Shown in pieces: positions 29,494 to 32,538 of a DNA stretch of 64,000 nt (the first letter of the stretch is position 1; every line of letters begins with the position of its first letter). Both the position numbers and the translations under genes were made by a program. The stretch is from Albidovulum sediminis (GTDB lineage: Bacteria > Pseudomonadota > Alphaproteobacteria > Rhodobacterales > Rhodobacteraceae): assembly GCF_025380365.1 (NCBI RefSeq), contig NZ_JAOCQF010000002.1, positions 142,846 to 206,845 on the forward strand, in the 5' to 3' direction. The notes under the pieces were generated by a model. The model saw nothing but the letters and a program-made list of their open reading frames with translations. It searched no databases and was not told the origin of the DNA.

Positions 29494-31995
29494 TCATGCG
29501 CATTTCGAATGGCCGCAGTTCGGGCAGGTCATGCAGCCCTCGCGTTTCTGCATCCCGAACTGCCCGCAGGCCGGGCAGGCCGGGCCGCGCGGCGCCTCGC
29601 CAACTGCCATGACCTGCGCCTTGGGGTCGGACTTCAGCCCCATCCCCTCGCCCCGGAGGAACCCGATCGCGACCATGTGGCGTTCTATCACGCCCCCGAT
29701 CGCGGCCAGGATCGAGGGGATGTAGCGCCCCTCCATCCACGCCCCGCCGCGCGGGTCGAACACCGCCTTCAGCTCCTCGACCACGAAGGACACGTCGCCG
29801 CCCCTTCGGAACACCGCCGAGATCATCCGCGTCAGCGCCACGGTCCAGGCGTAATGCTCCATGTTCTTGGAGTTGATGAAGACCTCGAACGGGCGCCGGT
29901 GGCCGCCCTGCACGATGTCGTTGATGGTGATGTAGATCGCATGCTCGCTGTCGGGCCACTTGAGCTTGTAGGTCGCCCCCTCCAGCGCCTGCGGCCGGTC
30001 CAGCGGTTCGGAGAGGTAGACGACATCGCCGTGCGGGGTGAGGGGTTCATTCTCCCCGACCGCGACTACTTCCGGCGCTTCGGTGGCGCCGAAAAGAAGC
30101 CAGCCGGCTGGAACGCCCAGCGCCGCCGCAATAATTCTAGCGCCGTCACGCGACATCTCTCTCTGATTGTTCTTGTAGAAGCTGAGCATGGTATTGGAGA
30201 TGCCGGTTGCCGAAGACAGCTGCGCCATATTGGCAAAGTTTGAGTTTTTCAGCGCCCACGCAAGTCGATCGCCGCTCGTCTGCAAAACCGGTAAGTCCGC
30301 TTTCGCCACACTCAGCACACTCCCCGTCACCGCGTTCGGGCGATAGGTGGTGCAGCCCTTGCAGCCCTGGTCCCAGGCGGCCATGTAGACGTCCTTGAAC
30401 GCCTCGAAGCTGATTTCCTCGGGGCAGTTGATGGTCTTGGAGATGGACGAATCCACCCATTTTTGCGCCGCCGCCTGCATGCGAACGTGATCCATGGGCG
30501 GCAGCGTCTGGGCGTTGACGAAATGCTCCGGCAGGGGCTTGTCGCCGAAGCGTTCGCGCCAGAGCTGGACGGCATAGTCCACCACCTCCTCCTCGGTGCG
30601 GCTGCCGTCCTTCTGCAGGACCTTGCGCCTGTAGGCATAGGCGAACACGGGCTCGATCCCGGAGGACACGTTACCGGCGTAAAGGCTGATCGTGCCGGTG
30701 GGTGCGATCGAGGTCAGGAGCGCGTTGCGGATGCCGTGCGCGCGGATCGCCTCGCGCACGTCGCCGTCCATCTGCATCATGGTGCCGCTGGCCAGGAACT
30801 TCTCGGCGTCGAACAGGGGGAACGCCCCCTTTTCCTTCGCGAGGTCGACCGAGGCGAGGTAGGCCGCCCGCGCGATGCGGTGCATCCAGTCCTCGGTCTG
30901 ACGGGCGGCCGCATCGGAGCCGTAGCGCAGCCCCACCATCAGGAGCGCGTCGGCCAGCCCGGTGACGCCCAGCCCGATACGGCGCTTGGCCTCGGCCTCG
31001 GCCGCCTGCTGCGGCAGCGGAAAGCGCGAGGCGTCGACGGTGTTGTCCATCATCCTGACCGCCACGCGCACCAGATCGTCCAGCGCGTCCTCGTCCAGCG
31101 TGGCACCCGGCCCGAACGGGTCGGCCACCAGCCGCGCGAGGTTGACCGAGCCCAGGAGGCAGGCGCCGTAGGGCGGCAGCGGCTGTTCCCCGCAGGGGTT
31201 GGTCGCCGCGATCGTCTCGGCATAGCCGAGGTTGTTCATCCGGTTGATCCGGTCGATGAAGATGACCCCCGGTTCGGCATAGTCGAAGGTCGCGCGCATG
31301 ATCCGGTTCCACAGGTCGACCGCGGAAACGGTGCGGTAGACCTTGCCGCCGAAGGTCAGGTCCCACGGCCTGTCGGCCTTCACCGCCTCCATGAAAGGGT
31401 CGGTGACGAGGACCGAGAGGTTGAACATGCGAAGCCGCGCCGCGTCCTGCTTGGCCTCGATGAAGGCCTCGATGTCGGGGTGGTCGCAGCGCATGGTGGC
31501 CATCATCGCGCCGCGGCGCGAGCCCGCCGACATGATCGTGCGGCACATCGCGTCCCACACGTCCATGAAGCTGAGCGGGCCGGAGGCATCGGCCGCGACC
31601 CCGTGCACGGCCGCGCCACGCGGGCGGATGGTGGAGAAGTCATAGCCGATCCCGCCGCCCTGCTGCATCGTCAGCGCCGCTTCCTTCAGCGCGTCGAAGA
31701 TGCCGGCCATGCTGTCGGGGATCGTGCCCATGACGAAGCAGTTGAAAAGCGTCACGCTGCGCCCAGTGCCCGCGCCCGCCGTGATCCGCCCGGCGGGCAG
31801 ATAGCGAAAGCCCGACAGCGCGTCGTAGAATCGGCCCTCCCACTGCGCCGGATCCTTCTCCACCTCTGCCAGCGCGCGGGCGATGCGGCGCCAGGTGTCC
31901 TCAACCGTGACGTCCACGGGGGTGCCGTCGGCCTCCTTCAGCCGGTATTTCATGTCCCAGATCTGCTCGGCGATGGGGGCGGCGAAGGCGGTCAT
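29494..31995 (-). CDS. nrdJ: Adenosylcobalamin-dependent (class II) ribonucleotide reductase with an internal XRE domain
   Basis: An 833-residue class II ribonucleoside-diphosphate reductase, making deoxynucleotides without a separate radical subunit. The active site is intact: thiyl cysteine C268 with N266 and E270 in NPCGEQPL, and the redox pair C86 (LFNCFV) and C279 (GACLLG). A TSCPD domain lies at about 665-750 and a cysteine-rich tail at C807, C810, C821, C824, C827 and C832. It exceeds the roughly 750 residues I expect because residues about 566-641 form a Cro/C1-type helix-turn-helix domain in the linker before the TSCPD domain. DNA coding for that insert is AT-richer than the flanks. 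Read as one frame with no stop. Confidence 0.95.
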   Translation of the reverse strand: MTAFAAPIAEQIWDMKYRLKEADGTPVDVTVEDTWRRIARALAEVEKDPAQWEGRFYDALSGFRYLPAGRITAGAGTGRSVTLFNCFVMGTIPDSMAGIFDALKEAALTMQQGGGIGYDFSTIRPRGAAVHGVAADASGPLSFMDVWDAMCRTIMSAGSRRGAMMATMRCDHPDIEAFIEAKQDAARLRMFNLSVLVTDPFMEAVKADRPWDLTFGGKVYRTVSAVDLWNRIMRATFDYAEPGVIFIDRINRMNNLGYAETIAATNPCGEQPLPPYGACLLGSVNLARLVADPFGPGATLDEDALDDLVRVAVRMMDNTVDASRFPLPQQAAEAEAKRRIGLGVTGLADALLMVGLRYGSDAAARQTEDWMHRIARAAYLASVDLAKEKGAFPLFDAEKFLASGTMMQMDGDVREAIRAHGIRNALLTSIAPTGTISLYAGNVSSGIEPVFAYAYRRKVLQKDGSRTEEEVVDYAVQLWRERFGDKPLPEHFVNAQTLPPMDHVRMQAAAQKWVDSSISKTINCPEEISFEAFKDVYMAAWDQGCKGCTTYRPNAVTGSVLSVAKADLPVLQTSGDRLAWALKNSNFANMAQLSSATGISNTMLSFYKNNQREMSRDGARIIAAALGVPAGWLLFGATEAPEVVAVGENEPLTPHGDVVYLSEPLDRPQALEGATYKLKWPDSEHAIYITINDIVQGGHRRPFEVFINSKNMEHYAWTVALTRMISAVFRRGGDVSFVVEELKAVFDPRGGAWMEGRYIPSILAAIGGVIERHMVAIGFLRGEGMGLKSDPKAQVMAVGEAPRGPACPACGQFGMQKREGCMTCPNCGHSKCA
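30073..30300 (-). other. XRE/Cro-type helix-turn-helix insert within nrdJ
   Basis: Residues 566-641 read GDRLAWALKNSN, MAQLSSATGISNTMLSFYKNN, MSRDGARIIAAALGVPAGWLLFG: the five-helix pattern of phage-repressor N-terminal domains, including the closing LGVPAGWLLFG. Upstream (RPNAVTGSVLSV) and downstream (VVYLSEPLDRPQALEG) sequence is ordinary NrdJ. Low-GC codons such as ATA, ATT, TTT and AAA cluster only here. No intein splice residues are seen. Confidence 0.85.
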
Positions 31996-32028
31996 GGGTA
32001 TCCTCGGCGGTCCTGGGGAAGGGCAACC

Positions 32029-32057
32029 AAGATACGCCCCGCGCCCGGCCTGGTCAA
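32029..32057 (-). promoter_or_regulatory. Probable nrdJ promoter
   Basis: On the minus strand TTGACC (32057-32052) and TATCTT (32034-32029) are separated by 17 bases, about 35 bases before the nrdJ start. No cobalamin riboswitch-like structure fits in the short leader. Confidence 0.55.
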
Positions 32058-32058
32058 C

Positions 32059-32086
32059 TTGATCTGGCGGCGCATCGGACTAGAAT
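32059..32086 (+). promoter_or_regulatory. Probable promoter for the DUF1489 gene
   Basis: TTGATC (32059-32064) and TAGAAT (32081-32086) are separated by 16 bases, 20 bases before the ATG. It lies back to back with the nrdJ promoter, one base apart. Confidence 0.5.
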
Positions 32087-32106
32087 GCCAAGGTCTTGGG
32101 GGTGCC

Positions 32107-32538
32107 ATGCCGGGATTCGTCCATCTTCTGAAACTTTGCGTCGGCGCCGACAGCGTCGAGGATCTGGTGGATTGGCACCGGACCCACCCCTCGCCCTTCC
32201 CCACGGGCGAGCGGCGGCACACCACCCGCATGTGGCCCAAGCGCGAGGCGGAGGTTCTGGCGGGCGGGTCGCTCTACTGGGTCATCAAGGGCGTGATCCT
32301 CTGCCGCCAGCGGATCGTCCGGCTGGACGAGGTGACCGGCGCCGACGGCATCCTGCGCTGCGGCATCATCATGGACCCGGAGGTGGTTCGGACCGAGGCC
32401 GCGGCGCGGCGCCCGTTCCAGGGCTGGCGCTACCTTGACCCGGCGGACGCGCCGCGCGACCTGCCGAAGGGCCGCGAAGGAGACAGCACGCTGCCCGAAG
32501 ACCTCGCCCTCGCCCTGTCCGAAATCGGCCTCAGGTAG
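32107..32538 (+). CDS. DUF1489 family protein
   Basis: A 143-residue DUF1489 protein of unknown function, found in most Rhodobacterales and Rhizobiales. It begins MPGFVHLLKLCVGADSVEDLVDWH and has the strongly conserved central block HTTRMWPKREAEVLAGGSLYWVIKGVILCRQRI, followed by CGIIMDPEVVRTEAAARRPFQGWRYLDPADAPRDL. No catalytic motif is evident; the conserved RMWPKR and WRYL segments suggest a binding surface. It is divergent from nrdJ and upstream of hisS. Confidence 0.87.
   Translation: MPGFVHLLKLCVGADSVEDLVDWHRTHPSPFPTGERRHTTRMWPKREAEVLAGGSLYWVIKGVILCRQRIVRLDEVTGADGILRCGIIMDPEVVRTEAAARRPFQGWRYLDPADAPRDLPKGREGDSTLPEDLALALSEIGLR

Follow-up and report, generated by a model that had tools for sequence, protein, structure and literature searches.

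Why does an enzyme that makes deoxyribonucleoside triphosphates (dNTPs) carry, within its own chain, a domain resembling a phage repressor? The question is raised by nrdJ in a 64,000-nucleotide stretch of the Albidovulum sediminis genome (contig NZ_JAOCQF010000002.1, positions 142,846 to 206,845; hereafter the window, in which positions are counted from the first letter), where a class II ribonucleotide reductase is encoded by one uninterrupted frame of 833 residues (29494-31995, minus strand). The original prediction, made from the sequence, had placed an embedded Cro/C1-type helix-turn-helix (HTH) domain at 30073-30300, correctly equated with residues 566-641, between the catalytic barrel and the TSCPD domain. 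Comparison with relatives showed that the nrdJ linker is a single site, which is empty in most genomes of the family and otherwise filled with one, or once two, Cro/C1-type HTHs. From the aligned genes, the domain looks like a polymorphic recognition cassette passed from one nrdJ allele to another, the gene itself staying at one chromosomal locus. The earlier view of a foreign Cro/C1 HTH in NrdJ stands; that it is one of a hypervariable, apparently exchanged set of cassettes had not been seen.

The embedded HTH and its composition

An AlphaFold model of the segment (104 residues) consists of five helices, with a block-mean predicted local distance difference test (pLDDT) of 91-94 over residues 11-70 and of 82 in the block of the last helix. 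The first-ranked Foldseek match of the segment was the integrative model of the RGHR-DLDH1 complex (E 2e-4, root-mean-square deviation (rmsd) 3.9), followed by the P22 c2 repressor (E 8e-4, rmsd 1.3) and, lower in the list, 434 Cro (E 2e-3, rmsd 1.3). The HTH was also predicted in the full-length model, which was built from 36 sequences, has a mean pLDDT of only 66 and is poor in parts of the barrel; residues 571-630 reach a block-mean pLDDT of 87-93 in it, and low-confidence stretches (pLDDT <50) lie on both sides at 548-567 and 639-671. The HTH is thus modelled as a bead held by two flexible strings between the barrel and the TSCPD domain. When scanned alone against Pfam, the segment scored 28.1 bits with HTH_19 (below the cut-off of 30.2) and 23.0 bits with HTH_3 (cut-off 23), and in the whole-protein scan both scores (22.8 and 18.7 bits, respectively) were below cut-off. 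No S24 peptidase domain was matched in the 833-residue protein at E values up to 1 in Pfam.

The segment is compositionally foreign to nrdJ, as the original prediction had proposed from its visible AT-richness. Its GC content is 0.53 at 30125-30274, and its GC content at third codon positions (GC3) is 0.25 lower than that of the rest of the gene and below that of every same-size window of the gene.

Relatives were sampled at one genome per species. The insert-bearing set comprised 57 distinct proteins, including the contig-truncated L120 (G119), and was brought to 62 members by adding six from the genus of the window and leaving out L120, identical proteins and G009 (L030/L126). In this 62-member set, which includes the insert of the window, 58 inserts match Pfam HTH_3 at E values up to 0.01, so the presence of an HTH at this site is beyond chance. 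HTH_3 was listed for all of ten inserts that were rescanned, for L181 at E 0.14 only. PHROG families 8 and 4, which are phage transcriptional regulators or repressors, match 56 and 53 of the 62 inserts, respectively. PADLOC matches (capH in 41 of 62, RmrA and others) were dismissed as evidence for defence, being generic HTH similarity.

A hypervariable site in a conserved enzyme

Insert-bearing relatives are Rhodobacteraceae-type bacteria, such as Defluviimonas, Roseovarius, Sulfitobacter, Tateyamaria and others. In a family sample of 149 genomes, 133 have an NrdJ match (E up to 1e-50), 23 of them with the HTH at the site; in a larger sample of 394 genomes, about 357 have a match (E up to 1e-100, a few of them being more distant NrdJ) and at least 47 carry the HTH, that is, 41 full-length and six split matches, the linkers of all 47 having been read. 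HTH-less status was mostly inferred from alignments ending at the site together with a normal frame length, and frames noticed to exceed about 815 residues were read. Within the genus of the window, 19 of 22 genomes have an NrdJ match and eight of the 19 carry HTHs of seven types, and one genome of the genus (G010) lacks the HTH at 91% barrel identity. Close relatives thus have either no such segment or a different one, and the alternative named by the original prediction, a long-conserved normal part of NrdJ, was not what was found.

Outside the family, NrdJ was matched in 112 of 289 genomes of a class-level sample, four of them from the family; in the other 108, none of the listed matches spans the insert and none of the 26 linkers read is HTH-like, and linker length varies across the class. 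For plasmids, the 15 best of 108 records cover 88-93% of the query in two pieces, like HTH-less genes. Viral NrdJ was dismissed as a source of the HTH, because no HTH was found by eye (no model scan) in the 58 of 80 viral loci with a readable junction. In some viral contigs (L272, L286, L296), this linker is occupied by other, long inserts of non-HTH appearance.

Among the 1596 pairs of the 57 proteins, median identity is 83% in the barrel and 83% in the TSCPD domain, versus 30% in the insert and linkers. Insert identity barely tracks barrel identity; for instance, L011 and L044 share 93% of barrel residues and 33% of insert residues. The HTH cores of the 62 inserts (1891 pairs) have a median identity of 27% and a maximum of 75%. 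Clustering yielded 28 types, 16 of them single (22-35 types at neighbouring thresholds), and the same 28 types and 48 changes were obtained without the insert trimming rule, which had shortened at least four inserts. On a tree built from the flanks only, HTH type needs 48 changes against a shuffled mean of 49, and about 30% of shuffles are equal or lower. HTH types are common to different genera, and in one nrdJ, that of G118 (L033/L127), the cassette site holds a tandem of two dissimilar HTHs. For HTH presence, the flank tree requires 34 changes or more, and shuffled labels averaged 47 and never fell below 37; presence is in some part inherited along the tree.

Six of the types were lettered A (L142/L007-like), B (L044-like), C (L046-like), D (L146-like), E (L020-like) and F (L011-like), and the HTH of the window clusters with L037, adjoining type A. 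Low GC3 recurs among the relatives. In 59 of 62 genes, the insert has a lower GC3 than the remaining sequence (two of the other three are of type E), and in 56 it is the window with the lowest GC3 of all. In the 30 same-type pairs listed, the proportion of non-synonymous differences (pN) is 0.19-0.34 with a proportion of synonymous differences (pS) of 0.54-0.88. Because pN is well below pS within types, the domain has been under past constraint, though not necessarily while inside NrdJ. As judged by alignment and tree, the nrdJ site has the pattern of HsdS, the specificity subunit of type I restriction, namely conserved flanks, unrelated alleles and an allele uncoupled from the tree save for a weak signal at the coarsest grouping.

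Junctions, kin and chromosomal setting

The comparison set of 86 HTH-less genes was limited to proteins that have the typical junction position and are at least 70% identical to the query. When codon columns (n=531) were related to HTH presence, four of the five strongest links lay no more than five codons from the insert. For example, the last Leu before the insert is encoded by TTG in 35 of 62 HTH-bearing versus 10 of 86 HTH-less genes. In 14 phylogenetically independent pairs on supported branches, GGG at the Gly and AGY at the second Ser each go with the HTH in about seven pairs and against it in 0.2-0.3, with a median p of 0.016 for either codon; the Leu codon TTG gave 5.2 versus 0.3 (median p 0.063). 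No significant link to the HTH was seen in these pairs for AGY at the first Ser (5.1 versus 2.2) or for three control codons. On the other side, a PHGDV or PHGDI tail is present in 48 of 62 HTH-bearing versus 6 of 86 HTH-less genes, and the latter six look like emptied cassette slots. Since junction codons and the 3' tail accompany the HTH, the data suggest that the cassette moves between nrdJ alleles together with short junctions. HTH-less nrdJ with a cassette-type 3' tail include L185, L191, L192, L251, L103 and similar genes; the empty L103 and the filled L039 have the tail in common and a barrel identity of 92%.

The kin of the inserts differ between types. Among the matches listed from a collection of 50,697 phage records, types A and F match mostly annotated repressors or regulators at 35-42%, and the HTH of the window matches phage HTH or hypothetical proteins at 36%. 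The sole phage match of type B (E up to 0.01) is Sulfitobacter phage NYA-2014a (two records, 40%, E 8e-5), which infects this bacterial family and in which the matched XRE regulator adjoins a divergent gene junction; in 32 genomes, type B matches three NrdJ inserts (61-63%) and one small protein (38%). Type C matches only two phage proteins, with no named function (32-33%), and is nearer to free-standing repressors, with five at 41-47% and one NrdJ at 41% in 61 genomes; of two of these free-standing matches that were scanned, one has an S24 peptidase domain. A close donor was not found in the own genome (best non-self E 0.03), phage records, plasmids, viral contigs and family genomes, and the best free-standing matches in this search were 65% over 46 residues (L233) and 47% (L238). 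Taken by similarity, the cassettes seem to be an old pool that resides for the most part in nrdJ, is related to phage repressors and occasionally receives members from elsewhere.

The enzyme around the HTH is a full member of its family (NCBIfam NrdJ_Z, TIGR02504, 583 bits versus a cut-off of 400), in which the N-terminal, barrel (423 bits) and TSCPD domains were all found with Pfam, and its B12-dependent reductase activity is presumed. The features are collected in the table below. Of the loci examined, 13 of 14 with the HTH and 52 of 55 without it have the divergent DUF1489 gene next to nrdJ; since this neighbour is the same in both groups, the nrdJ locus is fixed and the variation is in the insert. 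A second class II reductase, different from this one, is present in 376 of 394 family genomes and also in the genome of the window. Being nearly universal, it cannot explain the distribution of the HTH, and differential back-up was therefore rejected as the reason for which genomes have it.

Table. Features of nrdJ and its surroundings in the window
Feature	Position	Strand	Remark
nrdJ, class II (adenosylcobalamin-dependent) ribonucleotide reductase with embedded HTH	29494..31995	-	one intact open frame, 833 residues
Catalytic barrel domain, residues 85-551	30343..31743	-	Pfam PF02867
5' junction codons TGSVLSV, residues 557-563	30307..30327	-	some synonymous codons linked to HTH presence in relatives
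Cro/C1-type helix-turn-helix domain, residues 574-637	30085..30276	-	hypervariable among relatives, low GC3
3' cassette tail PEVVAVGENEPLTPHGDV, residues 641-658	30022..30075	-	predicted disordered linker
TSCPD domain, residues 676-774	29674..29970	-	Pfam PF12637
Cys-rich ribbon at the C-terminus, residues 807-832	29500..29577	-	invariant Cys alignment columns
Intergenic region between nrdJ and the divergent DUF1489 gene	31996..32106	none	dyads not in excess in HTH-bearing relatives
DUF1489 gene, divergent neighbour	32107..32538	+	marker of the same chromosomal locus with or without HTH

Several unusual nrdJ genes were also encountered. Genome G399 holds both an HTH-bearing (L176/L257) and an HTH-less (L193/L258) nrdJ, the latter with an unusual TSCPD part. 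In G009 (L030/L126), the frame of an HTH-bearing nrdJ is broken just past the HTH, leaving TSCPD out of frame, which is either a genuine loss or a sequencing error. NrdJ frames of about 1150-1220 residues occur in G451, G454, G596, other class-level genomes and G008; in these frames an additional segment, a few hundred residues long, lies close to query residue 268 and is, by its size and place, a candidate intein. Short NrdJ of about 580 residues without TSCPD (55-59% identity) are found in L194 (G411), G145, G032 and G127, and those that were read (L194, L134) end at or near the TGSVLS junction.

What the apparently exchanged domain may do

We tentatively favour the explanation that NrdJ, as a dimer, carries an interchangeable DNA-recognition domain directed against mobile elements. 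NrdJ, presumably dimeric and abundant, would present two HTHs and act as a constitutive repressor, which, because it has no S24 domain, would escape SOS cleavage. The HTH pair would bind operators of incoming temperate phages or other mobile elements, and the outcome would be an immunity specificity borne by a housekeeping enzyme. Catalysis would be spared because the linkers are long, and the nearly universal second class II reductase would make variation in this nrdJ affordable. The cassette would be swapped by homologous recombination between nrdJ alleles, and selection would favour changed specificity, in analogy with type I restriction enzymes, whose target-recognition domains get swapped. 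A conserved carrier with a constrained, exchanged recognition domain is the pattern of specificity genes. The further idea that nrdJ alleles form a chromosomal superinfection-immunity system, each silencing different phages or mobile elements and possibly coupled to the dNTP state via allostery, is conceivable and in our opinion doubtful.

We hold the operator-reading explanation no more firmly because a target was not found, donors are not evident and the charge is unremarkable. No DNA target was found for the HTH, operators having been looked for as dyads in the 140 bp upstream of nrdJ. The charge of the HTH2-3 segment has a median of 0 versus +1 in 22 free-standing XRE proteins (p 0.16), and the segment is acidic in four of five type E inserts, which raises the possibility that DNA binding is absent from some types. 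If the cassette were a captured operator reader, a closer resemblance to the repressors of phages infecting the same hosts would be expected. Yet, in the 394 genomes (E up to 1e-5), all nine non-self matches of the HTH of the window are NrdJ inserts, from other genera and at 29-41% identity, and no match was obtained in viral contigs. Types D and E likewise match other NrdJ inserts first (60-76%; 130 genomes each), with the third NrdJ match of type D at 40% and free-standing XRE proteins for both merely at 34-45%.

The case for exchange is also weakened at some points. At 13 coarse types there is a weak tree signal (37 changes versus a shuffled mean of 40.8; 4% of shuffles). Flank DNA identity climbs towards the insert within the genus, which had been considered as proof of recombination; in a synonymous control, HTH-less pairs are equally high on the TSCPD side, so the rise is only partly specific. 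The codon link could reflect selection on local translation instead; internal start-like sites occur in 23 of 62 HTH-bearing versus 18 of 86 HTH-less genes, a weak excess that leaves an internal translation start at the junction as a possibility.

Other explanations share part of this evidence. The HTH might be an interaction module, a decoy or docking surface for variable partners such as phage antirepressors or phage proteins that seize the reductase, exchanged in an arms race. The acidic recognition region of type E fits this, as do a protein-binding XRE (Stl with dUTPase) and an in-enzyme XRE (MPnS) on the Foldseek list, and hypervariability and swapping suit any arms race. However, most types retain ordinary HTH features and match phage regulator families, and decoys need not remain in one DNA-binding superfamily, so that we consider this explanation unlikely. 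We also give little credence to a neutral or nearly neutral passenger, that is, a tolerant linker in which functionless XRE domains are shuffled by ordinary recombination, even though the linker is predicted to be disordered and varies in length, some viral NrdJ have non-HTH inserts at the same place, and presence changes so often on the tree. Against it stand the recognisability of nearly all inserts as HTH_3 and the low within-type pN relative to pS, a constraint that need not have acted inside NrdJ; the intact frames in the 62-member set partly reflect the selection of intact frames, and one further gene, that of G009, is broken after the HTH. The original prediction had offered DNA tethering or a neutral linker passenger, and both fit poorly with 58 of 62 HTH_3 matches combined with about 28 types that do not follow the enzyme tree.

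It had also suggested that the HTH regulates its own gene. A regulatory fusion would make NrdJ a transcription factor for its own or other dNTP genes, linking its level or allosteric state to expression, and enzymes with regulatory XRE or other HTH domains, such as NadR, BirA and PutA, are precedents. Dyads are not in excess in the 140 bp upstream (61 HTH-bearing versus 85 HTH-less genes, p 0.98; a weak test), and no operator-like signal emerged upstream of nrdJ, dyads being alike with and without the HTH. A self-operator would, moreover, have to change with each change of type, about 48 times in the set. Autoregulation is thus less likely than operator reading against mobile elements, given the lack of dyad excess and the logic of type turnover, and we regard a regulatory fusion of either kind as improbable. 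That a single ancestral HTH diversified rapidly in situ, with no exchange, appears very improbable, although the HTH families are mostly private to NrdJ and the coarse types carry the weak tree signal. The finer types are uncoupled from the gene tree and common to different genera, unlike HTHs occur in tandem in one gene, and insert pS exceeds barrel pS in 28 of the 30 same-type pairs listed, which is only supportive because codon bias differs.

Returning to the favoured explanation of a changeable DNA-recognition domain, known systems resemble it in part. The window protein differs from the usual class II NrdJ with a C-terminal TSCPD domain, to whose HTH-less members it is up to 91% identical in the barrel, by an added HTH of about 65 residues between barrel and TSCPD. 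With the phage CI/Cro/c2 and S24 repressors (XRE) it shares the DNA-binding fold and the PHROG families; unlike S24 repressors, it lacks the S24 domain and is housed in an enzyme. Its likeness to HsdS is evolutionary, a recognition domain being exchanged at a fixed place in a conserved protein, whereas NrdJ uses an HTH in place of a target-recognition domain and its DNA recognition is putative; we know of no restriction or methylase activity of NrdJ-HTH. XRE domains are also fused to enzymes in methylphosphonate synthase (MPnS), at the N-terminus of cyanase and in NadR, where they are known as a conserved part of their own family, unlike the optional and swapped HTH of NrdJ. The Stl repressor and dUTPase are a precedent from phage conflict in which an XRE repressor is tied to a nucleotide-metabolising enzyme, but Stl is a separate protein bound by dUTPase, and the NrdJ HTH lies covalently within the enzyme. 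Gordonia phage replication initiators are reported to have unlike winged-HTH regions on near-identical C-termini (PMC10684548), likewise an HTH exchanged for a distant variant in an otherwise near-identical protein, in a phage gene rather than in a chromosomal housekeeping enzyme. In line with the original prediction, no description of an NrdJ-HTH fusion was found in the open-licence literature, the search not extending to subscription papers and preprints.

A dNTP-making enzyme of this family thus shows the signature of a recognition gene, with a conserved body, an interchangeable unrelated domain and alleles shuffled across genera. The HTH cassette should be separable, as its removal or exchange would leave the catalytic domains untouched. 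If the HTHs do not bind DNA, the site would be an unusual case of fold retention despite sequence exchange; if they do, an unrecognised layer of immunity or regulation would reside in a gene annotated merely as a reductase.

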